Source of the DNA: Nymphaea colorata
Lineage: Eukaryota; Streptophyta; Magnoliopsida; Nymphaeales; Nymphaeaceae
Assembly (NCBI RefSeq): GCF_008831285.2
Contig: NC_045149.1
Span: 16,795,035-16,859,034 of the forward strand
Length of the DNA stretch: 64,000 nucleotides
Direction of reading: 5' to 3'
The notes under the pieces were generated by a model, which was not told the DNA's origin, searched no databases, and saw only the letters and a program-made list of their open reading frames with translations. This document shows positions 6,220-64,000 of the stretch, in pieces. The position numbers and the translations under genes were made by a program. Numbering within the stretch: the first letter of the stretch is position 1; the number at the start of each line of letters is the position of its first letter.

Positions 6220-6750
6220 TCAAGGAGGGCAGATGAAGCCAGGAGGAGGAGTCTTCCCGCAGGTTATGAGAAGCTGAAGGGCAAGAGGAAGGTAGATGTT
6301 GAGGTTCAGAACCTTGAGCCTGAGCGTGGTGCAGAGGCAAGCGGCAGCCTCAAGCTCCACCAGTCCTTGCAGCAGCGGGCAGCAGGCGTTCTCCGCAGGG
6401 TCCCCAAGCCCGACGTGCACCAACCCGCCGAGCACATCCACACACGCACCTAATTTCAGCGCATTAACAGGGCACGTTGGAGCTGTCGATGATGGTGGCG
6501 GCATACATCCGCCGCCACTACCATCGCAGTTGCTGCCACCACCGCCACTCCCCCCACCACCATAGGGTGGATTGCTTGGATACCAACCACCACCACCGCC
6601 GGGCTGACAGTGACTTGGTGGAAGCGTCTTACGGTTGTGGCCGTGGCATGGGTCGGGGTCTGAACATGAACTACACCCTAGTGCTGGGAAGGCTGAAGAT
6701 ACCAGAACCATGCAAATGAAGAGAGAAGCAGTCATTTTTCGAGTCCCCAT
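6220..6750 (-). CDS. Hybrid proline-rich protein, glycine-rich linker variant (DC2.15/EARLI1 family, 8-cysteine motif)
   Basis: Secreted cell-wall or plasma-membrane-associated protein of the HyPRP family, related to lipid-transfer proteins; the exact role is unknown. From the N-terminus: a hydrophobic signal segment (ASLFICMVLVSSAFPALG), a short Cys/His-rich stretch (CSSCSDPDPCHGH), a Gly-rich linker, then the C-terminal 8-cysteine domain starting at CPVNALKLGAC and continuing with CCPLLQG, the CLC motif and two terminal cysteines, ending CPP. The gene has no intron. The frame is open to an ATG at 6777, but a TATA box at 6793-6800 would put transcription start about 6766-6770, downstream of that ATG. 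I therefore choose the ATG at 6750, which has A at -3 and G at +4; the ATG at 6735 is the alternative. Most relatives have a Pro-rich linker, so the Gly-rich one is unusual. Same strand as the HyPRPs at 17.7 and 26.2 kb. Confidence 0.93.
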   Translation of the reverse strand: MGTRKMTASLFICMVLVSSAFPALGCSSCSDPDPCHGHNRKTLPPSHCQPGGGGGWYPSNPPYGGGGSGGGGSNCDGSGGGCMPPPSSTAPTCPVNALKLGACVDVLGGLVHVGLGDPAENACCPLLQGLVELEAAACLCTTLRLKVLNLNIYLPLALQLLITCGKTPPPGFICPP

Positions 6751-6792
6751 CTTCTGGGCTTCTCCGAGGCGCTTCATTGCACTCCCAACTGG

Positions 6793-6800
6793 TTTTTATA
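6793..6800 (-). promoter_or_regulatory. TATA box of the first HyPRP gene
   Basis: TATAAAAA on the minus strand, 43-50 bases upstream of the chosen ATG at 6750. Its position rules out the in-frame ATG at 6777 as the usual start. Confidence 0.7.
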
Positions 6801-17746: not shown

Positions 17747-18160
17747 TTAATAACACTGATAGCCAGAAGGGGCCACTCTGCCGCATTCGTTGAGGAGCAA
17801 GCTGAGGGCGACAGGAACGTTGAGGTTGATGCCGAGAATGCTGGCCTTGATGGAAAGGCAGAGGCAAACTGCTGCGTCGAGGTCGGCCAGGCCCTTGATG
17901 AGGCTGCAGCACTGCTTGCTGCCCTCGCCGATGACCGCGTTCACCAGGCCATTCAGCACGTTAGCGCAGACTGACAACTTCAGGGTGTTCACGGGGCACT
18001 TGCTGGACGACGGGGGGCTGGTTGCGGGAACTGGGGGAGGCGGTGAAGAGGTGGCGGGTGGAGACTTTGATCTGCATGATGCACATGCAGATACACAGCT
18101 GAAAAAGAGAATGTTTAGGCACAGAAACACTGCAACCAGCCTGCTGGATGTGGAAGCCAT
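17747..18160 (-). CDS. Hybrid proline-rich protein (DC2.15/EARLI1-like, 8-cysteine motif), 137 aa
   Basis: Secreted cell-wall protein family related to lipid-transfer proteins. Signal peptide [20 protein letters not shown]..., cleaved about residue 24-26; a short Pro/Ser linker ([20 protein letters not shown], about residues 32-52); then the complete 8-cysteine domain from [11 protein letters not shown] through CCSLIKG and CLC to the final YQCY. The conserved Leu-rich core [18 protein letters not shown] is intact. Intronless, and the length is usual for the family. The ATG at 18160 is supported by a TATA box 81-88 bases upstream and a CT-rich leader. It resembles the 26.2-kb gene more than the 6.2-kb one. 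Expression and substrate cannot be read from the sequence. Confidence 0.96.
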
Positions 18161-18240
18161 TTCCTTTCTCTAACTTCCTCTCTATCTCTCTCTCTGCTTG
18201 TTGAGTTGAGGTGGGTATTGAAGGGTTTATGGCAGAGGGT
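18161..18240 (-). promoter_or_regulatory. CT-rich 5' leader of HyPRP-2
   Basis: The region between TATA box and ATG includes a (TC)n run (about 18180-18195), read as GA in the leader. Similar GA-rich leaders precede the HyPRP at 26.8 kb. Confidence 0.5.
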
Positions 18241-26207: not shown

Positions 26208-26810
26208 TCAGGCACAGGTGTAGTCGGCAGAGGGAACCCTGCCACAGGCATTGAGGAGCAAGCTGAGGGTGACTGGGACGTTGAGGTTGATGCCGAGAAT
26301 GTTGGCCTTGATGACAGTGCAGAGGCAGGCCGCTGCGTCGACGTCGGCCAGGCCCTGAAGGAGGGTGCAGCACTGGCTGCTGCCTGGGCCGACCACCACG
26401 TCTACCAAGCCGCTAAGCACGTTAGCACAGGCGCCCAACTTGAGAGTGTCCACGGGGCACTTGCCAGATGAAGTTGGGGGGGAGGAGGAAGGAGAGGTTG
26501 GTGCAGAGGGAGTGGGCTTGATCGTTGGCTTTGTGGCGGGAGGGGGCGGCGCAGAGGGTGTGGGCTTGGGCTTGGTCGTTGGCTTTGTAGCGGGAGGGGG
26601 CGGCGCAGAGGGCGAGGGCGTGGGCTTGGGCTTGTGCGTCGGCTTCGTAGCCGAAGGGGGCGGGGCAGAGGGCGAGGGCGTGGGCTTGGGCTTGTGTCTG
26701 GGCTTTGGGGTGGCTGCTGGTCCACACGCAGCGGCGGAGGCGTCACAGCTAAACAAAAGGAGGTTTAGTGAGAGAAACAGGGCTGCTAAGATGACAGATG
26801 CGGAAGCCAT
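26208..26810 (-). CDS. Hybrid proline-rich protein with expanded [13 protein letters not shown] repeats (8-cysteine motif), 200 aa
   Basis: HyPRP family, secreted to the cell wall. Signal peptide [20 protein letters not shown]..., ending near residue 26; a long Pro/Lys/Ser/Thr domain (about residues 32-115) made of about four copies of a [19 protein letters not shown] module; then the 8-cysteine domain [11 protein letters not shown]...CCTLLQG...CLC...[11 protein letters not shown]. The repeat is also visible in the DNA (about 26500-26710, period about 60-63). The frame is open upstream to 27086, but the TATA box at 26866-26874 places transcription start near 26840, so the ATG at 26810 is the start. 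Intronless. Closest in sequence to the 17.7-kb gene. The Lys-Pro-rich module suggests interaction with pectin or other wall polymers (inference). Confidence 0.95.
26500..26710 (-). repeat. Coding minisatellite in the proline-rich domain of HyPRP-3
   Basis: About 3.5 copies of a 60-63 bp unit encoding [13 protein letters not shown](S/P)ATKPT; units differ in His, Thr or Ile after the ATKP and in one deletion of PS. Confidence 0.85.
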
Positions 26811-26865
26811 GTCTCTCTCTGATTTCTGCTGGTGGGTTGTGTGTTGGTGGGTAGAATGGCAATGA

Positions 26866-26874
26866 ATTTTTATA
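26866..26874 (-). promoter_or_regulatory. TATA box of HyPRP-3
   Basis: TATAAAAAT on the minus strand, 56-64 bases upstream of the ATG at 26810. Confidence 0.75.
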
Positions 26875-28081
26875 TTGGAAGAATGCCCGGAAACTTGAGA
26901 CATTGATGGTGGATCATTTGGATTCTTTTGCGCAGCCAACCAGTGATCTTGGAATCTTGAATGGATAGGAGAACATGGTAGGAGGCATCCCATCAGGTAG
27001 ACAGAGAGTCTTCTTCTTGAAAAGACCTCTGTTTCTTTCAGAGAATCACATCTGATTGATTCCCATCCTTTCTGTATCAACCTCATGTCCTTATGTAATA
27101 ATTAAGGAAGAGAACTCTGCTATAAAATAATGTTGGAACCTTACTTGGAAGTCAAGCTTAGTGAAATGGCATGCTCCTTACTCCACTGTTTAATGCCCAA
27201 CTGATCTCTCACACATCTCATATTCATCAAACTAAATTTTCACTCGCGACACTTGTGATCTCATCATACACAAGGGAAAGATCCACACAGAAGTCTATGG
27301 TTCATGAATCTCCTAGGAAAATTTTCACTTCTGATCTTCATGTGAATCTATTACATGAATCTATTACAGTAGCAAAACTGTTTGATCCGAATCAAAGATA
27401 GACGGTTGATCCTAAATCTATAAATATTAAATCTTGAAGATGTATTAAAACTATGATACCTCACCATGTATACCCAGTAGCCCAGAACTAATGTCATGTG
27501 GACGAGGATGTAGAACTTACTTCCATGGACAACGGAAGGCCCCAAAAAGTTACTGCCCTATCTCTTTGGTCCATATCTCAGAAAGAATAATATGGATGAA
27601 GTTTGAAATCTAAGCTTTGTTTTGATATCCAAATTTACTCAGTTTACGCAATACTTTGTGAATATTTTTCCACTCAAATACATGCTATATTCCGGATCAC
27701 GTACGCATTTGATTCGGATTTACTATTTCGAAGAGACAAGAGGAGACCTTGTCCGATACTTATGATTGTTTGTCATTGGCATAAAAATCATATTGTATTC
27801 ATGTCTCTTTTCCTTTTCCACCTCAACACGCCAACCTCCGTGCGATTTGAAGCACACCTGACACTCCCGTCGCTAAAGCATTTAGTTGCTTCAAATTTCA
27901 AAAGGAACTGAACGATTGCTTTGGATACGGACGAACCCAGCTGTGACATGCCGCAAATTATGTGTCGTTTTGAGCTGGACACTTGCTTACATACGATCAT
28001 CATGTGCCTTATTCCATGCTTCATCTGCCCCTCTCATATTCTGCAATTCATAATAATGTGCATAAATTTCGGCATACTCTT
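26875..28081. other. Intergenic, upstream of HyPRP-3, no gene supported
   Basis: No domain recognised in the short frames. It contains a small direct repeat ATCTATTACATGA (about 27346-27370). Confidence 0.55.
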
Positions 28082-43380: not shown

Positions 43381-43390
43381 GAGGGAGAGG

Positions 43391-43600
43391 GAGCGAGGGT
43401 TTTCTTGGAGTGAAAAAGGAAAGTGGGCGAGATGGAGAAGGAGCGAGGTTTTTCTTGGAGTGAAAAGGAAAGTGGGCGAGATGGAGAAGGAGCGAGGGTT
43501 TTTCTTGGAATGAAACGGAAAGTGAGCGAGAGGGAGAAAGAGAGAGGGTTTTCTTGGAATGGAACGGAAATTTGTCGAGAGTGAGAAGGAGCGAGGGTTT
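43391..43600. repeat. About 50-bp minisatellite in the cohesin 5' leader or promoter
   Basis: Four full copies of a unit beginning GAGCGAGGGTTTTCTTGG start at 43391, 43441, 43490, 43540 and a partial at 43589 (spacing 49-50). The units share TTGGARTGRAAMGGAAAGTGRGCGAGA words. They make a long but meaningless open frame on the minus strand. Confidence 0.92.
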
Positions 43601-47030: not shown

Positions 47031-49149
47031 CAAAAAATATTTACACGTAAACCGGATCAGATTAGATCTCTGTTCCAAATTATAGATTTTAAAGTTGAGT
47101 TCAACATCCTATTTATGTGAGGTCATCAACATTTTGTCTTGATCAGATTGGACCCGGATCCTCACCTTCTATTCAATATCTTAATTTCAACACCTAAAAC
47201 TGATGAGGTCAGACATCTGATCCAAACCCAAAAGCCAAATCCAACATCTCATAGATTAGACCTTTGGTCTAGAACAGAGATATCAAATTCAAATCCAACA
47301 TCTCATTCTAGTCTCATTGTTTAAATTCAACATCCTATCTAGGTCGGAAGAAACATCAGATCAACATATAAACCAGATCAAATTAAACCTTCGCTTCTGA
47401 CCCTATATCCAAAATCCAAATTCAACACCTAAAGTCGATAGACCTCTGATCTAAACCATAGTTCTAAAATTCAAATAGAAAATCTGAATTAGATTAGATT
47501 AGACATTTGATCTAGACACGAGATCCAAATTCAAATGCAATGCCTGAATAGGGTGAGATTAGACCTCCTCATCCATATATTTGGTATAATATTCAAATTC
47601 AACGTCTAAACCACATCAGATGAGACCCTTTATCTACATCACAAGATCAAAATCCAGGTTCTACCTCTAAAGCGAATTTGTATTGGGATCTAATCTAAAC
47701 CATAAGTTCTAAACCCAAATTCAACACTTCAACTAGATCAAATTAGACCTCTGATCCAAATTCGACATTTTAAATCCGAGTTCAACGTCGGGTTATTTAT
47801 GATCAACATTTTGGTTGGATCGGATTAGACCCCTGATCCTCGCCCTCTAACCAGAATCCAAATTCATCAAGTAAAGCTGATGAGATGAGACATTATTCAA
47901 CATCTGTATCAAATTTGTTTAGACATTTGTTCTAGAACATGGATCTCATATTCAAATGCAACATCTAAATAGGGTGAGATTAGACCTCCTCATCCATATC
48001 CTTGTTGTAGTGTTCTAATTCAACATCTAAACTCGATCAGATGAGACCTCTGAACTACATCACAAGATTAAAATCCAAGTTCTACATCTAAAGCGGATTT
48101 GTTTTGGGATCTAATCAAAACTATAGGTTCTAAACCCAAATTCAACACTTAAACTAGATCAGATTAGACCTCTGATCTAAATTCTAGAATTTAAATCCGA
48201 GTTCAACATTGTATTCGGGTTACTTATGATCAACATTTTGGTCGGATCGGATTAGACCCCTGATCCTCGCCCTCCAACCATAATCCAAATTCATCAAGTA
48301 AAGCCGATAAGATGAGACATTATCCAACATATGTATAAAATTTGATGAGACGTTTGTTTTAGAACAGAGATCTCAAGTCCAAACGCAACCTCTAAATAGG
48401 GTGAGATTAGACATCCTCATCCATATCCTTCGTCTAATGTTCTCATTCAACATCTAAACCAGATCATATGAGACCTCTGATCTACATCACAAGATTAAAA
48501 TCCAAGTTCTTCCTTTAAAGCGGATTTGTTTTGGGTTTTAATTGAAACTATACGTTTTAAACCCAAATTCAACAATTAAACCATATCATATTAGACTTGT
48601 GATCCAAATTCGAGATTTTAAATCCGAGTTCAATATCGTATTCGGGTTACTTATAATCAACATTTTGGCTGGAACGGATTAAACCCCTGATCCTCACCCT
48701 CTAACCAAAATCCAAATTCCTCAAGTAAAGCTGATGTGATGGGACATAACATCTGTATCAGCTTTGTTTAGAACAGGGATCTCAAATTCAAATGCAACCT
48801 CTAAATAGGGAGGGATTAGGCCTCCTGATCCATATCCTTGGTGTAATGTTCTAATTCAACATCTAAACCAAATTAGACGAGACCTCTCATCTACATAACA
48901 AGATTAAAATCCAAGTTCTACCTCTAAAGTTGATCTGTTTTGGGATCTAATCTAAACTATAGGTTCTAAACCCAAAATTCAACACTTAAACCGGATTAGG
49001 TTAGACCTCTGATCCAAATTTGAGATTTTAAATACAAATTCAACATCGTATTCGGGTTTCTTATGATTATGATTTTGGCTGGATCAGATTAGACCCCTGA
49101 TCCTCGCTTTCAAACCAGAATCCAAATTCATCAAGTAAAGTTGATCAGA

Positions 49150-50030
49150 ATCCAAATCCAAATTTGTTTAGACATTTGTTCTAGAATGGGGATCTCAAAT
49201 TGGAATTCAACGTCCAAAGAGGGTGAGATTAGACCTACTCTTCTATATCCTTGTTGTAATGTTCTAATTCAATATCTAAACTCGATCAAATGAGACCTCT
49301 AAACTACATCACAAGATTAAAACCCAAGTTCTACATCTAAAGCGGATTTGTTTTGGGATCCAATCAAAACTATAGGTTCTAAACCCAAATTCAACACTTA
49401 AACTAAATGAGATTAGACCTCTGATCTAAATTCTAGATTTTAAATCCGAGATCAACATTGTATTCGGTTTACTTATGATCAACATTTTGGCTGGATCGGA
49501 TTAGACCCTTGATCCTCGCCCTCTTACCATAATCCAAATTCATCAAGTAAAGCCGATGAGATGAGACATTATCCAACATATGTATCAAATTTGATGAGAC
49601 GTTTGTTTTAGAACAAGGATCTCAAGTTCAAACTCAACCTCTAAATAGGGTGAGATTAGACCTCCTCATCCATATCCTTGGTGTAATGTTCTCATTCAAC
49701 ATCTAAATCAGAGCATATGAGACCTCTGATCTACATCACATGATTAAAATCCAAGTTCTTCTTTTAAAGCGGATTTGTTTTGGGATTTAGTTGAAACTAT
49801 ACATTTTAAACCCAAATTCAACAATTAAACCGGATTAGATTAGACCTCTGATCCAAATTCGAGATTTTAAATCCGAGTTCAGCATCGTATTCAGGTTACT
49901 TATAATCAACATTTTGGCTGGAACAGATTAAACCCCTGATCCTAGCCCTCTAACCAGAATCCAAATTCATCAAGTAAAGCCGATGGGATGGGACATAACA
50001 TCTGTATCAGATTTGTTTAGAACATGGATC
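49150..50030. repeat. Segment duplicated 2117 bp further on (51267-52147)
   Basis: Diagnostic variants such as AATTCAACGTCCAAAGAG (49204 and 51321) and CTCAAGTTCAAACTCAACC (49621 and 51738) recur at a constant offset of 2117, which is five monomers. The two copies are nearly identical over about 880 bp. Confidence 0.85.
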
Positions 50031-52186
50031 TCAAATTGAAATGCAACCTCTAAATAGGGTGTCATTAGACCTCCTCATCCATATCCTTGGTGTATTTTTC
50101 TAATTCAACATCTTAACCAAATTAGATGAAACCTCTCATCTACATCACAAGATTAAAATCCAAGTTCTACCTCTAAAGTTGATTTGTTTTGGGATCTAAT
50201 CTAAACTAAGGGTTCTAAACCCAAAATTCAACACTTAAGCCGGATTAGGTTAGACCTCTGATCCAAATTTAAGATTTTAAATATGAGTTCAACATCGTAT
50301 TCGGGTTTCTTATGATTAAGATTTTGGCTGGATCAGATTATACCCCTGATCCTTGCTTTCTAACCAGAATCCAATTTCATCAAGTAAAGCTGATGAGGGA
50401 CATTATGATACATCTGTATCTGATTTGGTTAGACCTTTGTTCTATAATAGGGATCTCAACATCAAATGCATCCTCTAAATAGGGTGAGATTTGACCTCCT
50501 CATCCATATCCTTGGTGTAGTGTTCTCATTCAACATCTAAACCAGATCAGAAGAGACCTCTTATCTACATCACAATATTAAAATCAAAATTTTACCTCTA
50601 AAGTGGATTTGTTTTGGGATCTAATCTAAACTATGGGCTCTAAACCCAAATTCAAGACTTAAATCGGATCAGATTAAGGCCTCTGATCCAAATTCGAGAT
50701 TTTAAATATGAGTTCAACATTGTATTCATGTCACTTTTGATCAACATTTTGGCTGGATCGGATTAGACACCTAATCCTCGCCCTGTAACCAAAATCCAAA
50801 TTCATCTGGGAAATCCAATGAGAAGACACATTATCCAACATCTGTATTAGATTTTATTAGACCTTTGTTCTAGAACATGGATCTCAAATTAAAATGCAAC
50901 GTCCAAATAAGGTGAAATTAGACTTCCACATCCACATCCTTGGTGTAATGTTCTAAATCAACATTTAAACCGGATCAGATGAGACCACTGATCTGCATAA
51001 TAATATTAAAATCGAAGTTCTACCTCTAAAATTGATATGTTTTTGGATCTAATCTATACTATAGGTTCTAAACCCCAAATTCAACACTTAAACAGGATCA
51101 GATTAGATCTCTGATCCAAATTCGAGATTTTAAATACGAGTTCAACATCGTCTTCGGGTTACTTATGATCAACATTTTGGCTGGATCCGATTAGACCTTT
51201 GATTCTCGCCCTCTATCCAGAATCCAAATTCATCCAGTAAAGCTTATGAGATGAGACATTATTCAACATCTGTGTCAAATTTGTTTAGACATTTGTTCTA
51301 GAATGGGGATCTCAAATTGGAATTCAACGTCCAAAGAGGGTGAGATTAGACCTACTCTTCCATATCCTTGTTGTAATGTTCTAATTCAACATCTAAACTC
51401 GATCAAATGAGACCTCTAAACTACATCACAAGATTAAAACCCAAGTTCTACATCTAAAGCGGATTTGTTTTGGGATCCAATCAAAACTATAGGTTCTAAA
51501 CCCAAATTCAACACTTAAACTAAATGAGATTAGACCTCTGATCTAAATTCTAGATTTTAAATCTGAGATCAACATTGTATTCGGTTTACTTATGATCAAC
51601 ATTTTGGCTGGATCGGATTAGACCCTTGATCCTCGCCCTCTTACCATAATCCAAATTCATCAAGTAAAGCCGATGAGATGAGACATTATCCAACATATGT
51701 ATCAAATTTGATGAGACATTTGTTTTAGAACAAGGATCTCAAGTTCAAACTCAACCTCTAAATAGGGTGAGATTAGACCTCCTCATCCATATCCTTGGTG
51801 TAATGTTCTCATTCAACATCTAAATCAGAGCATATGAGACCTCTGATCTACATCACATGATTAAAATCCAAGTTCTTCTTTTAAAGCGGATTTGTTTTGG
51901 GATTTAGTTGAAACTATACATTTTAAACCCAAATTCAACAATTAAACCGGATTAGATTAGACCTCTGATCCAAATTCGAGATTTTAAATCCGAGTTCAGC
52001 ATCGTATTCAGGTTACTTATAATCAACATTTTGGCTGGAACGGATTAAACCCCTGATCCTCGCCCTCTAACCAGAATCCAAATTCATCAAGTAAAGCCGA
52101 TGAGATGGGACATAACATCTGTACCAGATTTGTTTAGAACAGGGATCTCAAATTCAAATGCAGCCTCTAAATACGGTGAGATTAGA

Positions 52187-52311
52187 TCCAGCCTTTACCA
52201 AATTCAACTTGGTTGGATTTTGTCTACTTGGATTCAGACTGGAACCTTATTCTTTTAAATCAAATTTGGTTCACACTAGCATACGATCCAATATTTATAT
52301 GTAATTGGATC
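52187..52311. other. Non-satellite 125-bp insert within the array
   Basis: The monomer breaks after GGTGAGATTAGA and resumes at GTTCTAATTCAACATG. In between is unrelated sequence starting TCCAGCCTTTACC and ending TAATTGGATC, replacing about 28 bp of the monomer. No TSD or TIR identifies the mechanism. Confidence 0.7.
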
Positions 52312-55300
52312 GTTCTAATTCAACATGTAAACCAAATTAGATGAGACCTTTCATCTACATCACAAAATTAAAATCCAAGTTCTTCCTCTAAAGTTGATCT
52401 GTTTTGGGATTTAATCTAAACTATAGGTTCTAAACCCAAAATTCAGCACTTAAACCGGATTAGTTTAGACGTCTGATCCAAATTTGAGATTTTAAATACG
52501 AGTTCAACATCGTATTCGGGTTTCTTATGATTAAGATTTTGGCTGGATCAGATTATACCCCTGAACCTCGCTTTCTAACCAGAATCTCATGAGGGACATT
52601 ATGCAACATCTGTACCTGATTTGGTTAGGCCTTTGTTCTATAATAGGGATCTCAACATCAAATGCAACATCTAAATAGGGTGAGATTTGACCTCCTCATC
52701 CATATCCTTGGTGTAGTGTTCTCATTCAACATCTAAACCAGATCAGATGAGACCTCTGATCTACATCACAATATTAAAATCGAAATTTTACCTCTAAAGT
52801 GGATTTGTTCTGTGATCTAATCTAAACTATGGGCTCTAAACCCAAATTCAAGACTTAAATCGGATCAAATTAGGCCTCTGATCCAAATTTGAGATTTTAA
52901 ATATTAGTTCAACATTGTATTCGTGTCTCTTATGATCAACATTTTGGCTGGATCGGATTAGACACCTAATCCTCGCCCTCTAACCAAAATCCAAATTCAT
53001 CAGGGACATCCAATGGGAAGACATGTTATCCAACATCTGTATTAGATTTTGTTAGACCTTTGTTCTAGAACATGGATCTCAAATTAAAATGCAGCGTCCA
53101 AATAAGGTGAAATTAGACTTCCTCATCCACATCATTGGTGTAATGTTCTAATTCAACATTTAAACCAGATCAGATGAGACCTCTGATCTACATAACAATA
53201 TTAAAACCGTTGTTCTACCTCTAAAGTTGATTTGTTTTGGGATCTAATCTATACTATAGGTTCTAAACCCCAAATTCAACACTTAAACAAGATCAGATTA
53301 GACCTCTGATCCAAATTCGAGATTTTAAATACGAGTTCAACATCGTCTTCGGGTTACTTATGATCAACATTTTGGCTGGATCAGATTAGACCTTTGATCC
53401 TCGCCCTCTCCCCAGAATCCAAATTCATCAAGTAAAGCTGATGAGATGAGACATTATTCAACATCTGTATCAAATTTGTTTAGACATTTGTTCTAGAATG
53501 GGGATCTCAAATTGGAATGCAACGTCCAAAGCGGGTGAGATTAGACCTCCTCATCCATATCCTTGTTGTAATGTTCTAATTCAACATCTAAACTCGATCA
53601 AATGAGACCTCTAAACTACATCACAAGATTAAAACCCAAGTTCTACATCTAAAGCGGATTTGTTTTGGGATCCAATCAAAACTATAGGTTCTAAACCCAA
53701 ATTCAACACTTAAACTAGATCAGATTAGACCTTTGATATAATTCTAGATTTTAAATCCGAGTTCAACATTGTATTCGGGTTACTTATGATCAACATTTTG
53801 GCTGGATTGGATTAGACCCCTGATCCTCGCCCTCCATCCATAGTCCAAATTCATCAAGTAAAGCCGATGAGATGAGACATTATCCAACATATGTATCAAA
53901 TTTGATGAGACGTTTGTTTTAGAACAGGGATCTCAAGTTCGAACGCAACCACTAAATAGGGTGAGATTAGACCTCCTCATCCATATCCTTGGTGTAATGT
54001 TCTCATTCAACATCTAAATCAGATCATATGAGACCTCTGATCTACATCACAAGATTAAAATCCACGTTCTTCCTTTAAAGCAGATTTGTTTTGGGATTTA
54101 ATTGAAACTATACGTTTTAAACCCAAATTCAACAATTAAACCGGATTAGATTAGACCTCTGATCCAAATTCGAGATTTTAATTCCGAGTTCAGCATTGTA
54201 TTCGGGTTGCTTATAATCAATGTTTTGGCTAGAACTGATTAAACCCTTGATCCTCGCCTTCTAACCAGAATCCAAATTCATCAAGTAAAGCCGATGAGAT
54301 GGGACATAACATCTGTATCAGATTTGTTTAGAACAGGGATCTCAAATTCAAATGCAACCTCTAAATAGGGTGAGATTAGACCTTCTCATCCATATCCTTG
54401 GTGTATTGTTCTAATTCAACATCTAAACCAAATTAGATGAGACCTCTCATCTACATCACAAGATTAAAATCCAAGTTCTACCTCTAAAGTTGATTTGTTT
54501 TGGGATCTAATCTAAACTATAGGTTCTAAACCCAAAATTCAACACTTAAGCCGGATTAGGTTAGACCTCTGATCCAAATTTGAGATTTTAAATACGGGTT
54601 CAACATCGTATTCGGGTTTCTTATGATTAAGATTTTGGCTGGATCAGATTATACCCCTGATCGTCGCTTTCTAACCAGAATCCAAATTCATCAAGTAAAG
54701 CTGATAAGAGACATTATGCAACATCTGTATCTGATTTGGTTAGACCTTTGTTCTATAATAGGGATCTCAACATCAAATGCAACCTCTAAATAGGGTGAGA
54801 TTTGACCTCCTCATCCATATCCTTGGTGTAGTGTTCCCATTCAACATCTAAACCAGATCAGATGAGACCTCTGATCTACATCACAAGATTAAAATCCAAG
54901 TTCTTCCTTTAAAGCGGATTTGTTTTGGGATTTAATTGAAACTATACGTTTTAAACCCAAATTCAACAGTTAAACCGAATAAGATTAGATCTCTAATCCA
55001 AATTCGTGATTTTAAATCCGAGTTCAACATCGTATTCGGGTTTATTATAATCAACATTTTGGCTGGAACGGATTAAACCCCTGATCATCTTCCTGTAACC
55101 AGAATCCAAATTCATCAAGTAAAGCCGATGAGATGGGACATAACATCTGTATCAGATTTGTTTAGAACAGGGATCTCAAATTCAAATGCAACCTCTAAAT
55201 AGGGTGAGATTAGACCTCCTCATCCGTATCCTTGGTGTATTGTTCTAATTCATCATCTAAACCAAATTAGATGAGACATCTCATCTACATCACAAGATTA

Positions 55301-55709
55301 AAATCCAAGTTCTACCTCTAAAGTTGATTTGTTTTGGGATCTAATCTAAACTATAGGTTCTAAAATGAAAACTCAACACTTAAGCCGGATTAGGTTAGAC
55401 CTCTGATCCAAATTTGAGATTTTAAATATGAGTTCAACATCGTATTCGGGTTTCTTATGATTAAGATTTTGGCTGGATCAGATTATACCCCTGATCCTCG
55501 CTTTCTAACCAGAATCCAAATTCATCAAGTAAAGCTGATGAGGGACATTATGCAACATCTGTATCTGATTTGGTTAGACCTTTGTTCTATAATAGGGATC
55601 TCAACATCAAATGCAACCTCTAAATAGGGTGAGATTTGACCTCCTCATCCATATCCTTGGTGTAGTGTTCTCATTCAACATCTAAACCAGATCAGATGAG
55701 ACCTCTGAT

Positions 55710-58700
55710 CTACATCTAAAGCGGATTTGTTTTGGGATCCAATCAAAACTATAGGTTCTAAACCCAAATTCAACACTTAAACTAGATCAGATTAGACCTT
55801 TGATATAATTCTAGATTTTAAATCCGAGTTCAACATTGTATTCGGGTTACTTATGATCAACATTTTGGTTGGATCGGATTAGACCCCTGATCCTCGCCCT
55901 CCATCCATAGTCCAAATTCATCAAGTAAAGCCGATGAGATGAGACATTATCCAACATATGTATCAAATTTGATGAGACGTTTGTTTTAGAACAGGGATCT
56001 CAAGTTCAAACGCAACCTCTAAATAGGTTGAGATTAGACCTCCTCATCCATATCCTTGGTGTAATGTTCTCATTCAACATCTAAATCAGATCATACGAGA
56101 CCTCTGATCTACATCACAAGATTAAAATCCAAGTTCTTCCTTTAAAGGGGATTTGTTTTGGGATTTAATTGAAACTATACGTTTTAAACCCAAATTCAAC
56201 AGTTAAACCGAATAAGATTAGATCTCTGATCCAAATTCGTGATTTTAAATCCGAGTTCAACATCTTATTCGGGTTACTTATGATCAACATTTTGGCTGGA
56301 ACAGATTAGACCCTTGATCATCACCCTCTAACCAGAATCCAAATTCATCAAGTTATGCCGATGAGATGGGACATAACATCTGTATCAGATTTGTTTAGAA
56401 CAGGGATCTCAAATTCAAATGCAACCTCTAAATAGGGTGAGATTAGACCTCCTCATCCATATCCTTGGTGTATTGTTCTAATTCATCATCTAAACCAAAT
56501 TAGATGAGACATCTCATCTACATCACAAGATTAAAATCCAAGTTCTACCTCTAAAGTTGATTTGTTTTGGGATCTAATCTAAACTATAGGTTCTAAAATG
56601 AAAACTCAACACTTAAGCCGGATTAGGATAGACCTCTGATCCAAATTTGGGATTTTAAATATGAGTTCAACATCGTATTCGGGTTTCTTATGATTGAGAT
56701 TTTGGCTGGATCAGATTATACCCCTGATCCTCGCTTTCTAACCAGAATCCAAATTCATCAAGTAAAGCTGATGAGGGACATTATGCAACATCTGTATCTG
56801 ATTTGGTTAGACCTTTGTTCTATAATAGGGATCTCAAATTCAAATGCAACCTCTAAATAGGGTGAGATTAGACCTTCTCATCCATATCCTTGGTGTATTG
56901 TTCTAATTCAACATCTAAACCAAATTAGATGAGACCTATCATCTACATCACAAGATTAAAATCCAAGTTCTACCTCTAAAGTTGATTTGTTTTGGGATCT
57001 AATCTAAACTATAGGTTCTAAACCCAAAATTCAACACTTAAGCCAGATTAGGTTAGACCTCTGATCCAAATTTGAGATTTTAAATACGGGTTCAACATCG
57101 TATTCGGGTTTCTTATGATTAAGATTTTGGCTGGATCAGATTATACCCCTGATCCTCGCTTTCTAACCAGAATCCAAATTCATCAAGTAAAGCTGATGAG
57201 GGACATTATGCAACATCTGTATCTGATTTGGTTAGAGCTTTGTTCTATAATAGGGATCTCAACATCAAATGCAACCTCTAAATAGGGTGAGATTTGACCT
57301 CCTCATCCATATCCTTGGTGTAGTGTTCTCATTCAACATCTAAACCAGATCAGATGAGACCTCTGATCTACATCTAAAGCGGATTTGTTTTGGGATCCAA
57401 TCAAAACTATAGGTTCTAAACCCAAATTCAACACTTAAACTAGATCAGATTAGACCTTTGATATAATTCTAGATTTTAAATCCGAGTTCAACATTGTATT
57501 CGGGTTACTTATGATCAACATTTTGGCTGGATCGGATTAGACCCCTGATCCTCGCCCTCCATCCATAGTCCAAATTCATCAAGTAAAGCCGATGAGATGA
57601 GACATTATCCAACATATGTATCAAATTTGATGAGACGTTTGTTTTAGAACAGGGATCTCAAGTTCAAACGCAACCTCTAAATAGGTTGAGATTAGACCTC
57701 CTCATCCATATCCTTGGTGTAATGTTCTCATTCAACATCTAAATCAGATCATACGAGACCTTTGATCTACATCACAAGATTAAAATCCAAGTTCTTCCTT
57801 TAAAGGGGATTTGTTTTGGGATTTAATTGAAACTATACGTTTTAAACCCAAATTCAACAGTTAAACCGAATAAGATTAGATCTCTGATCCAAATTCGTGA
57901 TTTTAAATCCGAGTTCAACATCTTATTCGGGTTACTTATGATCAACATTTTGGCTGGAACAGATTAGACCCTTGATCATCACCCTCTAACCAGAATCCAA
58001 ATTCATCAAGTTATGCCGATGAGATGGGACATAACATCTGTATCAGATTTGTTTAGAACAGGGATCTCAACATCAAATGCAACCTCTAAATAGGGTGAGA
58101 TTTGACCTCCTCATCCATATCCTTGGTGTATTGTTCTAATTCATCATCTAAACCAAATTAGATGAGACATCTCATCTACATCACAAGATTAAAATCCAAG
58201 TTCTACCTCTAAAGTTGATTTGTTTTGGGATCTAATCTAAACTATAGGTTCTAAAATGAAAACTCAACACTTAAGCCGGATTAGGTTAGACCTCTGATCC
58301 AAATTTGAGATTTTAAATATGAGTTCAACATCGTATTCGGGTTTCTTATGATTAAGATTTTGGCTGGATCAGATTATACCCCTGATCCTCGCTTTCTAAC
58401 CAGAATCCAAATTCATCAAGTAAAGCTGATGAGGGACATTATGCAACATCTGTATCTGATTTGGTTAGACCTTTGTTCTATAATAGGGATCTCAACATCA
58501 AATGCAACCTCTAAATAGGGTGAGATTTGACCTCCTCATCCATATCCTTGGTGTAGTGTTCTCATTCAACATCTAAACCAGATCAGATGAGACCTCTGAT
58601 CTACATCTAAAGCGGATTTGTTTTGGGATCCAATCAAAACTATAGGTTCTAAACCCAAATTCAACACTTAAACTAGATCAGATTAGACCTTTGATATAAT

Positions 58701-61700
58701 TCTAGATTTTAAATCCGAGTTCAACATTGTATTCGGGTTACTTATGATCAACATTTTGGCTGGATTGGATTAGACCCCTGATCCTCGCCCTCCATCCATA
58801 GTCCAAATTCATCAAGTAAAGCCGATGAGATGAGACATTATCCAACATATGTATCAAATTTGATGAGACGTTTGTTTTAGAACAGGGATCTCAAGTTCAA
58901 ACGCAACCTCTAAATAGGTTGAGATTAGACCTCCTCATCCATATCCTTGGTGTAATGTTCTCATTCAACATCTAAATCAGATCATACGAGACCTCTGATC
59001 TACATCACAAGATTAAAATCCAAGTTCTTCCTTTAAAGGGGATTTGTTTTGGGATTTAATTGAAACTATACGTTTTAAACCCAAATTCAACAGTTAAACC
59101 GAATAAGATTAGATCTCTGATCCAAATTCGTGATTTTAAATCCGAGTTCAACATCTTATTCGGGTTACTTATGATCAACATTTTGGCTGGAACAGATTAG
59201 ACCCTTGATCATCACCCTCTAACCAGAATCCAAATTCATCAAGTTATGCCGATGAGATGGGACATAACATCTGTATCAGATTTGTTTAGAACAGGGATCT
59301 CAAATTCAAATGCAACCTCTAAATAGGGTGAGATTAGACCTCCTCATCCATATCCTTGGTGTATTGTTCTAATTCATCATCTAAACCAAATTAGATGAGA
59401 CATCTCATCTACATCACAAGATTAAAATCCAAGTTCTACCTCTAAAGTTGATTTGTTTTGGGATCTAATCTAAACTATAGGTTCTAAAATGAAAACTCAA
59501 CACTTAAGCCGGATTAGGTTAGACCTCTGATCCAAATTTGAGATTTTAAATATGAGTTCAACATCGTATTCGGGTTTCTTATGATTAAGATTTTGGCTGG
59601 ATCAGATTATACCCCTGATCCTCGCTTTCTAACCAGAATCCAAATTCATCAAGTAAAGCTGATGAGGGACATTATGCAACATCTGTATCTGATTTGGTTA
59701 GACCTTTGTTCTATAATAGGGATCTCAACATCAAATGCAACCTCTAAATAGGGTGAGATTTGACCTCCTCATCCATATCCTTGGTGTATTGTTCTAATTC
59801 ATCATCTAATCAAATTAGATGAGACATGTCATCTACATCACAAGATTAAAATCCAAGTTCTACCTCTAAAATTGATTTGTTTTGGGATCTAATCTAAACT
59901 ATAGGTTCTAAAATGAAAACTCAACACTTAAGCCGGATTAGGTTAGACCTCTGATCCAAATTTGAGATTTTAAATACGGGTTCAACATCGTATTCGGGTT
60001 TCTTATGATTAAGATTTTGGCTGGATCAGATTATACCCCTGATCCTCGCTTTCTAACCAGAATCCAAATTCATCAAGTAAAGCTGATGAGGGACATTATG
60101 CAACATCTGTATCTGATTTGGTTAGACCTTTGTTCTATAATAGGGATCTCAACATCAAATGCAACCTCTAAATAGGGTGAGATTTGACCTCCTCATCCAT
60201 ATCCTTGGTGTAGTGTTCTCATTCAACATCTAAACCAGATCAGATGAGACCTCTGATCTACATCTAAAGCGGATTTGTTTTGAGATCCAATCAAAACTAT
60301 AGGTTCTAAACCCAAATTCAACACTTAAACTAGATCAGATTAGACCTTTGATATAATTCTAGATTTTAAATCCGAGTTCAACATTGTATTCGGGTTACTT
60401 ATGATCAACATTTTGGCTGGATTGGATTAGACCCCTGATCCTCGCCCTCCATCCATAGTCCAAATTCATCAAGTAAAGCCGATGAGATGAGACATTATCC
60501 AACATATGTATCAAATTTGATGAGACGTTTGTTTTAGAACAGGGATCTCAAGTTCAAACGCAACCTCTAAATAGGTTGAGATTAGACCTCCTCATCCATA
60601 TCCTTGGTGTAATGTTCTCATTCAACATCTAAATCAGATCATACGAGACCTCTGATCTACATCACAAGATTAAAATCCAAGTTCTTCCTTTAAAGGGGAT
60701 TTGTTTTGGGATTTAATTGAAACTATACGTTTTAAACCCAAATTCAACAGTTAAACCGAATAAGATTAGATCTCTGATCCAAATTCGTGATTTTAAATCC
60801 GAGTTCAACATCTTATTCGGGTTACTTATGATCAACATTTTGGCTGGAACAGATTAGACCCTTGATCATCACCCTCTAACCAGAATCCAAATTCATCAAG
60901 TTATGCCGATGAGATGGGACATAACATCTGTATCAGATTTGTTTAGAACAGGGATCTCAACATCAAATGCAACCTCTAAATAGGGTGAGATTTGACCTCC
61001 TCATCCATATCCTTGGTGTATTGTTCTAATTCATCATCTAAACCAAATTAGATGAGACATCTCATCTACATCACAAGATTAAAATCCAAGTTCTACCTCT
61101 AAAGTTGATTTGTTTTGGGATCTAATCTAAACTATAGGTTCTAAAATGAAAACTCAACACTTAAGCCGGATTAGGTTAGACCTCTGATCCAAATTTGAGA
61201 TTTTAAATATGAGTTAAACATTGTATTCGGGTTTCTTATGATTAAGATTTTGGCTGGATCAGATTATACCCCTGATCCTCGCTTTCTAACCAGAATCCAA
61301 ATTCATCAAGTAAAGCTGATGAGGGACATTATGCAACATCTGTATCTGATTTGGTTAGACCTTTGTTCTATAATAGGGATCTCAACATCAAATGCAACCT
61401 CTAAATAGGGTGAGATTTGACCTCCTCATCCATATCCTTGGTGTAGTGTTCTCATTCAACATCTAAACCAGATCAGATGAGACCTCTGATCTACATCTAA
61501 AGCGGATTTGTTTTGGGATCCAATCAAAACTATAGGTTCTAAACCCAAATTCAACACTTAAACTAGATCAGATTAGACCTTTGATATAATTCTAGATTTT
61601 AAATCCGAGTTCAACATTGTATTCGGGTTACTTATGATCAACATTTTGGCTGGATCGGATTAGACCCCTGATCCTCGCCCTCCATCCATAGTCCAAATTC

Positions 61701-64000
61701 ATCAAGTAAAGCCGATGAGATGAGACATTATCCAACATATGTATCAAATTTGATGAGACGTTTGTTTTAGAACAGGGATCTCAAGTTCAAACGCAACCTC
61801 TAAATAGGTTGAGATTAGACCTCCTCATCCATATCCTTGGTGTAATGTTCTCATTCAACATCTAAATCAGATCATACGAGACCTCTAATCTACATCACAA
61901 GATTAAAATCCAAGTTCTTCCTTTAAAGGGGATTTGTTTTGGGATTTAATTGAAACTATACGTTTTAAACCCAAATTCAACAGTTAAACCGAATAAGATT
62001 AGATCTCTGATCCAAATTCGTGATTTTAAATCCGAGTTCAACATCTTATTCGGGTTACTTATGATCAACATTTTGGCTGGAACAGATTAGACCCTTGATC
62101 ATCACCCTCTAACCAGAATCCAAATTCATCAAGTTATGCCGATGAGATGGGACATAACATCTGTATCAGATTTGTTTAGAACAGGGATCTCAAATTCAAA
62201 TGCAACCTCTAAATAGGGTGAGATTAGACCTCCTCATCCATATCCTTGGTGTATTGTTCTAATTCATCATCTAAACCAAATTAGATGAGACATCTCATCT
62301 ACATCACAAGATTAAAATCCAAGTTCTACCTCTAAAGTTGATTTGTTTTGGGATCTAATCTAAACTATAGGTTCTAAAATGAAAACTCAACACTTAAGCC
62401 GGATTAGGTTAGACCTCTGATCCAAATTTGAGATTTTAAATATGAGTTCAACATCGTATTCGGGTTTCTTATGATTAAGATTTTGGCTGGATCAGATTAT
62501 ACCCCTGATCCTCGCTTTCTAACCAGAATCCAAATTCATCAAGTAAAGCTGATGAGGGACATTATGCAACATCTGTATCTGATTTGGTTAGACCTTTGTT
62601 CTATAATAGGGATCTCAACATCAAATGCAACCTCTAAATAGGGTGAGATTTGACCTCCTCATCCATATCCTTGGTGTATTGTTCTAATTCATCATCTAAT
62701 CAAATTAGATGAGACATGTCATCTACATCACAAGATTAAAATCCAAGTTCTACCTCTAAAATTGATTTGTTTTGGGATCTAATCTAAACTATAGGTTCTA
62801 AAATGAAAACTCAACACTTAAGCCGGATTAGGTTAGACCTCTGATCCAAATTTGAGATTTTAAATACGGGTTCAACATCGTATTCGGGTTTCTTATGATT
62901 AAGATTTTGGCTGGATCAGATTATACCCCTGATCCTCGCTTTCTAACCAGAATCCAAATTCATCAAGTAAAGCTGATGAGGGACATTATGCAACATCTGT
63001 ATCTGATTTGGTTAGACCTTTGTTCTATAATAGGGATCTCAACATCAAATGCAACCTCTAAATAGGGTGAGATTTGACCTCCTCATCCATATCCTTGGTG
63101 TAGTGTTCTCATTCAACATCTAAACCAGATCAGATGAGACCTCTGATCTACATCTAAAGCGGATTTGTTTTGAGATCCAATCAAAACTATAGGTTCTAAA
63201 CCCAAATTCAACACTTAAACTAGATCAGATTAGACCTTTGATATAATTCTAGATTTTAAATCCGAGTTCAACATTGTATTCGGGTTACTTATGATCAACA
63301 TTTTGGCTGGATTGGATTAGACCCCTGATCCTCGCCCTCCATCCATAGTCCAAATTCATCAAGTAAAGCCGATGAGATGAGACATTATCCAACATATGTA
63401 TCAAATTTGATGAGACGTTTGTTTTAGAACAGGGATCTCAAGTTCAAACGCAACCTCTAAATAGGTTGAGATTAGACCTCCTCATCCATATCCTTGGTGT
63501 AATGTTCTCATTCAACATCTAAATCAGATCATACGAGACCTCTGATCTACATCACAAGATTAAAATCCAAGTTCTTCCTTTAAAGGGGATTTGTTTTGGG
63601 ATTTAATTGAAACTATACGTTTTAAACCCAAATTCAACAGTTAAACCGAATAAGATTAGATCTCTGATCCAAATTCGTGATTTTAAATCCGAGTTCAACA
63701 TCTTATTCGGGTTACTTATGATCAACATTTTGGCTGGAACAGATTAGACCCTTGATCATCACCCTCTAACCAGAATCCAAATTCATCAAGTTATGCCGAT
63801 GAGATGGGACATAACATCTGTATCAGATTTGTTTAGAACAGGGATCTCAACATCAAATGCAACCTCTAAATAGGGTGAGATTTGACCTCCTCATCCATAT
63901 CCTTGGTGTATTGTTCTAATTCATCATCTAAACCAAATTAGATGAGACATCTCATCTACATCACAAGATTAAAATCCAAGTTCTACCTCTAAAGTTGATT
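55710..64000. repeat. 2890-bp higher-order repeat (seven monomers), almost three copies
   Basis: The deletion-junction phrase GATCTACATCTAAAGCGG occurs with its CTACATCTAA at 55710, 57368, 58601, 60258, 61491 and 63148. Distances alternate 1658/1233/1657/1233/1657, so the full period is 2890 (2891 for the first). Monomer types run A-B-C-X-A-B-C, where X is D in the first copy (about 57012) and C' in later ones (59905, 62799). The C'-specific word ATCATCTAATCAAATTAG recurs at 59801 and 62691, again 2890 apart. The copies differ by only scattered single bases. Confidence 0.95.

Follow-up and report, generated by a model that had tools for sequence, protein, structure and literature searches.

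Fusion monomers and a probable pentamer-to-heptamer path at the edge of a satellite array in Nymphaea colorata

A stretch of 64,000 nucleotides from Nymphaea colorata (RefSeq assembly GCF_008831285.2, contig NC_045149.1, positions 16,795,035 to 16,859,034; hereafter the window) ends in a satellite array of head-to-tail monomers with a consensus of 427 bp, whose multimeric unit changes along its length. With a probability of roughly 0.78, this region represents the outer edge of a non-coding array whose unit was rebuilt stepwise by out-of-register recombination, from a pentamer through a trimer to a heptamer. The beginnings of higher-order repeats (HORs) are usually hidden, because homogenization wipes out the early stages. 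At this array edge, parent monomers, fusion joints, and successive multimers are kept together, which makes the order of events arguable from sequence. An earlier note on positions 55710-64000 had described a seven-monomer HOR with an exact 2890-bp period and proposed that it grew by insertion of a monomer; the first of these claims is largely borne out, whereas the second is replaced by a different history.

Nested periods and successive multimers

Tandem Repeats Finder (TRF) returned a single array (47482-63994; period 427; 39.4 copies), and wrap-around alignment to the consensus resolved 40 monomers (m01 to m40) on one strand from 47479 to the window edge, where the terminal monomer is clipped to 185 bp and beyond which the array continues. 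Monomer lengths are 399-433 bp, except for the interrupted m12 (480 bp) and the clipped final monomer. Base-to-base autocorrelation of 47-64 kb peaks at lag 2890 (0.491; median 0.271), followed by lag 1233 (0.470), which corresponds to a trimer, and lag 1657 (0.421), a trimer plus one monomer; both lie close to the values of ~1235 and ~1655 that had been foretold. Within 55710-64000, lag 2890 reaches 0.84, and the sole higher lag is 7438 (0.993; overlap of ~850 bases). As a control, 200-bp windows at 500 random sites between 1 and 40 kb were compared at 20 lags near 2890, and the best lag gave an identity of at most 0.405.

The consensus is exactly 7 x 61 bp long and contains degenerate 61-bp subunits. 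Its identity with itself at lag 61 is 45.4%, compared with a maximum of 35.4% over all lags in 500 shuffles, and the mean identity of the seven 61-bp rows is 38.2%, whereas 1000 shuffles gave no more than 30.9%. This similarity peaks among rows 3-5 (62-72%) and is low for row 7 (20-36%); because of this weak row, an origin of the monomer from seven ancestral 61-bp units is suggested rather than shown. Three nested periods are directly present in the window: the 61-bp subunit, the 427-bp monomer, and the multimers (pentamer and heptamer).

Monomers were typed from an all-against-all identity matrix and a 40-column parent assignment. From left to right, the untyped m01 is followed by the blocks RAB (m02-m04), RABST (m05-m09), RABST (m10-m14), and RAB (m15-m17), the fusion monomer m18, a B monomer (m19), and the repeating order CABXCAB... 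(m20-m40). In m02-m17, the older types R, A, B, S, and T are 80.0-89.5% identical to one another, with a mean of 84.3%. The outermost monomers are the oldest recognizable ones: m01 shares at most 87% identity with any other monomer, m02 shares 93-94% with later R monomers, m03 shares 92-93% with the A monomers m06, m11, and m16, and m04 shares 88-94% with B monomers. Across the whole array, B is succeeded by C (3), X (3), S (2), R (1), and m18 (1); the one direct B-R junction, without S and T, lies between m04 and m05.

The older pentamer, R-A-B-S-T, repeats every 2112 bp; the block lies beside the heptamer and was absent from the earlier note. Aligned over 2092 bases, its two copies share 96.2% identity, with 79 substitutions and 123 gap columns, and the slot-by-slot identities (m05-m09 vs. 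m10-m14) are 99, 99, 89, 95, and 95%, with the B slot disturbed by a foreign segment in m12. Among the self-alignments listed (60 of 111), alignments break at 52186 and restart at 52306-52313, on either side of this segment, whose ~125 bp stand in place of ~27 bp of the monomer. Its right end reads GATCCAAT...AATTGGATC and could form a hairpin; the segment may be filler DNA from a repair event or a fragment of a small element.

Further to the right, the unit is a heptamer with the cyclic order C-A-B-X-C-A-B, of which three full copies and one piece lie in the window. Its organization is of higher order, since copies 2 and 3 differ at only 5 of 2890 sites without any gap (99.83% identity), compared with the 80.0-89.5% found between the older monomer types. 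Copy 1 is 97.9% identical to copies 2 and 3 (60 and 61 substitutions, respectively, and one gap column each), and the piece of copy 4 is identical to the first 607 bp of copy 3 (607/607). Inside the heptamer, the repeated A, B, and C slots of its two trimers are 99-100% alike, X and B share 95-98% identity, and the fusion types C and X occupy three of the seven slots.

Autocorrelation and the alignment of copies agree on a seven-monomer HOR in the right part of the array, as the earlier note had claimed. Its cyclic layout of two trimers and one odd monomer accords with the identity matrix and the alignment, and the recent homogenization that the note invoked is reflected in the five differences between copies 2 and 3. 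The period of exactly 2890 bp applies from 56918 onward only (17 mismatches in 4193 positions, 56918-61110). Between 55145 and 56916, the offset is 2891 (99.2%), because copy 1 carries one extra base at 56917, and lag 2890 over 55710-56916 gives 29.7%. The unit does occupy 55710-64000 but also reaches further left, to 54723 at 97.9% identity, with the array as a whole beginning at 47479.

Coding content of the array was rejected: 47-64 kb holds no closed stop-to-stop frame of at least 120 amino acids (frames crossing the window ends left out), and the 19 closed frames of that size in the window all end before 43.9 kb. A satellite derived from a structured RNA or a tRNA was likewise rejected, since the window has no Rfam match at the gathering threshold and no tRNA (ARAGORN, bacterial code). 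The motifs TTTAGGG/CCCTAAA occur only singly, at six places in the window, so that within this stretch nothing points to a link with telomeres; on the right, the array continues past the window edge. Literature searches with short sequence words of the satellite and with "427 bp" plus further terms gave no match. We infer that the array has no sequence-coded function and that it expands, contracts, and homogenizes.

Fusion monomers and their joints

Fusion monomers were identified by comparing how many informative sites fit two parents and how many fit one, using consensus parents, a single switch, and 10000 permutations. Monomers that had not been classed as fusions served as controls, and a second parent brought no gain in any of the eight tests; three of these controls were imperfect one-parent fits (m02, 49/67; m28, 43/52 and 58/68). 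Being restricted to a single switch, the test is blind to a C-like patch in m26 and m33 that is discussed below.

Judged from its sequence, C is a fusion of S (5') with R (3'). The order S-then-R fits 54 of 55 informative sites in all six C monomers, which none of the 10000 permutations equaled. Positions 1-150 of C differ from S at two (m08) or three (m13) sites, and positions 160-399 of C (m27) show 0/240 differences from the R monomer m15 (at 53,463), compared with 10-13/240 from the other three R monomers. At the switch from S to R lies a gap of 27 bp, missing in 6/6 C monomers and present in all 34 others. An 8-bp match, TCTACATC, stands in S just before this gap and in R just after it, and C retains a single copy.

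In the case of X, the monomers of heptamer copies 2 and 3 (m30 and m37) follow C up to positions 81-109 and B thereafter (53/54 sites; 0/10000 permutations). Moreover, all three X monomers carry both the 27 bp missing from C and a stretch of 13 bp missing from B. Of the 11 B monomers, 10 lack the latter and the remaining one, m12, is disrupted; 3/3 X and m18 carry it. A third fusion, m18, combines C and A; two parents account for 52 of its 58 informative sites and one parent for 34 (0/10000 permutations). The choice of cut point decides which monomers show up as fusions, as has been noted for human hybrids (PMC9549924). The fusion joints themselves are independent of the cut point and, like the fusions and their neighbors, are directly observed here.

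Out-of-register exchange and its alternatives

Exchange out of register leaves its product with the left neighbor of the 5' parent and the right neighbor of the 3' parent. C has B on its left (as S does) and A on its right (as R does). X is preceded by B (like C in a C-A-B array) and followed by C (like B there), and m18 has B on its left (as C) and B on its right (as A). Monomer order and adjacency counts satisfy the rule in 6/6 instances. Because the neighbors of the fusions match out-of-register exchange, unequal exchange leading from the pentamer through a C-A-B trimer to the heptamer is the best account of the array.

In such a history, short 61-bp units would have given rise to the 427-bp monomer, and the diversifying monomers would have formed the pentamer R-A-B-S-T. 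A single event may then have joined S to the next R, with loss of the 3' part of S, the whole of T, and the 5' part of R. The joining probably took place at the 8-bp match, and its product would be C, hence the trimer C-A-B. A later exchange between C and B, one monomer out of register, would have yielded X and, with it, C-A-B-X-C-A-B. Subsequently, this block would have been copied as a unit, for which unequal exchange is sufficient and a circular intermediate possible, and kept uniform by both exchange and conversion. The flank at 47-55 kb would have escaped homogenization and retained the earlier stages. We infer this order of events and the mode of copying from the joints and the surviving multimers. 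In the available portion of one study, plants are reported to contain satellite circles whose sizes match the monomer and the HOR, and rolling-circle intermediates were not found there (PMC2543021).

Gene conversion without length change, which would have partly overwritten a fixed array and left the fusions as conversion tracts, is an improbable alternative. Conversion in place keeps both neighbors of the acceptor. C would then still adjoin T on one of its sides. X would have A as its left neighbor had B been the acceptor, or as its right neighbor had C been the acceptor. For m18, an A acceptor would put C or R on the left, and a C acceptor would put A on the right. The array shows none of these arrangements; C, X, and m18 have the neighbors of two parents rather than both neighbors of one acceptor in 6/6 instances, T is missing next to C, and 27 bp were lost at the joint. 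Conversion is, however, favored by three B monomers, m26 (58036), m33 (60926), and m40 (63816), which hold a C-like patch at approximately positions 38-108 (3/3 diagnostic sites) with a normal A at their left. The same patch is common to the X monomers of copies 2 and 3. Because the patched B monomers retain their usual A, the patch is read as a conversion-like tract, and both exchange and conversion have probably acted on the array.

The earlier note's own proposal, slightly less improbable than conversion but still unlikely, was that growth began with the duplication of an ABC trimer, followed by insertion of a C-like monomer and amplification of the result. It is in keeping with the 99-100% similarity of the two trimers slot by slot and with the C sequence at the start of X. 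However, X equals C only up to positions 37-109 and B afterwards, so that it is a fusion of the 5' part of C with the 3' part of B and not an inserted copy of C; a single unequal exchange yields X and the extra monomer together. The proposal is also silent on the pentamer and on the S/R origin of C. What stands of the stepwise growth are the two near-identical trimers and the extra monomer; the insertion does not, and C itself is apparently an S/R fusion that arose from the older pentamer. An assembly artefact, with one true copy stacked by the assembler, is the most improbable of the three explanations. Copy 4 does equal copy 3 over the whole length in view (607/607), but copy 1 is separated from copies 2 and 3 by 60 and 61 substitutions and a length change, five sites distinguish copies 2 and 3 from each other, the pentamer copies differ by 79 substitutions in 2092, and the fusions are internally consistent.

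Several observations weigh against stepwise unequal exchange, or against individual steps of it. With consensus parents, the switch in C falls at 139-141, before the 8-bp match at 153-160, and the intervening sites (141-153) do not distinguish S from R in every member. R carries two copies of CTACATC 27 bp apart, and C could have arisen in two steps, by in-register exchange between S and R followed by slippage between these copies. In copy 1, the X monomer (X', m23) switches at 37-49, and when the new B is taken as a parent, its fit is 46/54 sites, with 33 of 10000 permutations as good; when m17 is taken as the B parent, the fit is 47/50 sites and 1/10000 permutations. The patch that X shares with m26, m33, and m40 means that the switch in m30 and m37 is maybe not the original one, and the neighbor argument for X presumes a pre-existing C-A-B array. 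A RAB block without S and T is present at m02-m04, and a RAB trimer possibly preceded the pentamer. Finally, only three heptamer and two pentamer copies lie in the window.

More tentatively, and at somewhat below even odds, all recombination steps from pentamer to heptamer may be readable from joints in one stretch of 16.5 kb, with the switches located within the first 160 bp of the monomer. If true, this would point to a preferred exchange site inside the repeat and to fusion monomers as the start of new plant HORs, as has been hypothesized for human centromeres.

Array edge, flank, and known systems

Identity drops leftward along the array, from 99.8% between heptamer copies 2 and 3 to 97.9% for copy 1, 96.2% between the pentamer copies, at most 87% for m01, and, at the outer edge, decayed pieces. 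Array edges commonly escape homogenization, and the gradient observed here agrees with this picture. A profile of 39 monomers (nhmmer) matched 47043-47216 (E 6e-30), 47253-47469 (E 5e-15), and 47182-47226 (E 4e-05), and the reversed control was empty. Short blastn matches of 81-85% identity lie at 47035-47113, 47252-47298, and 47412-47455, and the remnants reach back to ~47040. In the DNA to the left of the array, satellite likeness is confined to these pieces at 47.0-47.5 kb (blastn; profile, E up to 1).

The left-hand flank contains three predicted hydrophobic-seed or lipid-transfer-like genes in the same orientation (PF14547, Hydrophob_seed; E 1.7e-28 to 5.7e-23), which form a putative small tandem gene cluster. 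The two nearest to the array share 82% DNA identity over 230 bp. The GC content at third codon positions (GC3) of three genes is 0.56, 0.69, and 0.71. Because the flank holds this cluster, the array borders gene-bearing DNA here. The Pfam scan covered 28 of the 227 stop-to-stop frames of at least 60 amino acids in 1-47 kb; 24 had no match, three matched Hydrophob_seed, and one matched a CTP_transf_1 fragment, and no transposon domain was found in these 28 frames. The CTP_transf_1 match (PF01148; 2809-3138, minus strand) is weak (E 1e-05; 26 bits vs. a cut-off of 24) and perhaps represents an exon of a cytidylyltransferase gene. A 49-bp tandem repeat of 4.4 copies, purine-rich on the plus strand, lies at 43381-43600.

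Table 1. Positions of the satellite array, its multimers and fusion monomers, and features of the flank (coordinates within the window)
Feature	Position	Strand	Evidence or remark
Satellite array, 40 head-to-tail monomers, consensus 427 bp	47479..64000	+	TRF; wrap-around alignment to consensus
Oldest recognizable monomers m01-m04 (m01 untyped, R, A, B)	47482..49155	+	Identity matrix
Pentamer copy 1, R A B S T, 2112 bp	49156..51267	+	Identity matrix; alignment
Pentamer copy 2, R A B S T, B monomer interrupted by foreign segment	51268..53462	+	Identity matrix; alignment
Unrelated segment of ~125 bp, in place of ~27 bp of m12	52187..52312	.	Self-alignments; sequence reading; m12-m17 alignment
m15 R, m16 A, m17 B	53463..54722	+	m15 is the R nearest to the 3' part of C
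Heptamer copy 1, 2891 bp: m18 (C/A fusion) B C A B X' C	54723..57613	+	Alignment
Heptamer copy 2, 2890 bp, phased here as A B C A B X C	57614..60503	+	Alignment
Heptamer copy 3, 2890 bp	60504..63393	+	Alignment
Heptamer copy 4, clipped by window edge	63394..64000	+	Alignment
m18, C/A fusion, switch at 141-153	54723..55144	+	Fusion test
C monomer, 399 bp, S/R fusion, 27-bp deletion at joint	58448..58846	+	Fusion test; alignment
Further C copies	starts 55557, 57215, 60105, 61338, 62995	+	Fusion test
X monomer, 424 bp, C/B fusion	59681..60104	+	Fusion test
Further X	62571 (424 bp); X' at 56790 (425 bp)	+	Fusion test
Decayed, broken monomer remnants at outer edge	47043..47469	+	nhmmer; blastn
Three hydrophobic-seed / lipid-transfer-like genes, same orientation	6220-6795, 17747-18169, 26208-27101	minus	PF14547

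The term alphoid-like, used in the earlier note, suits the layered organization of the array only. The core of the CENP-B box is TTCGNNNNANNCGGG, and this core has no exact match on either strand of the 64 kb. The monomers of human alpha satellite are ~171 bp long, compared with 399-433 bp here, and the 61-bp substructure is a further difference. Membership among alphoid satellites was rejected on monomer length and the lack of the CENP-B-box core. The likenesses concern multi-monomer units that are far more alike than their monomers (PMC8122249), hybrid monomers built from parts of two others (PMC8336445), and former arrays, now divergent, that have been moved aside to flank homogeneous ones (PMC9549924). 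Human hybrids are described as relatively infrequent (PMC8336445) and are present in cen5 HORs (PMC10053651); here, C and X make up 3/7 slots.

The statement that such organization is less common in plants is at odds with Melters et al. (2013; PMC4053949), who report plant HORs as widespread. HORs have been reported in Vicia (PMC2543021), Lathyrus (PMC7004042), carrot (PMC8259371), and Arabidopsis (PMC10053651), and the array is a further case of this already reported organization. The centromeres of Arabidopsis likewise contain satellite HORs, including an eight-monomer pattern; by contrast, HiCAT reports single-monomer expansion in all of them, whereas the HOR here is regular and apparently derived from a pentamer (PMC10053651). 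Switchgrass centromeres resemble the array in having HOR units that include truncated monomers, but their monomers are 166-175 bp long, and the origin of the truncated units is not traced in the available portion of that paper (PMC4053949).

A shift from short units to multimers is described for subfamily VG-V of VicTR-B in Vicia, which has a pentamer HOR (186 bp; PMC2543021), and for the plant satellites FabTR-2 and FabTR-53 of Lathyrus (PMC7004042). The FabTR-53 monomers of 660, 368, and 565 bp are supposed to be older HORs of shorter units (PMC7004042), a situation comparable to the 61-bp subunits found here. Compared by description, the evidence in Vicia and Lathyrus comes mainly from periodicity spectra and circle sizes, and not from joints in a contiguous array (PMC2543021, PMC7004042). 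For human alpha satellite, hybrid monomers have been hypothesized to mark the birth of new monomers (PMC8336445, PMC9549924, PMC10053651). No plant case of hybrid monomers was among the matches listed (titles and beginnings of abstracts, with partial coverage of the literature), and their absence from print is not claimed. The array in Nymphaea colorata offers a plant case of fusion monomers whose likely parents still lie beside the product, for an idea that was put forward for human centromeres.

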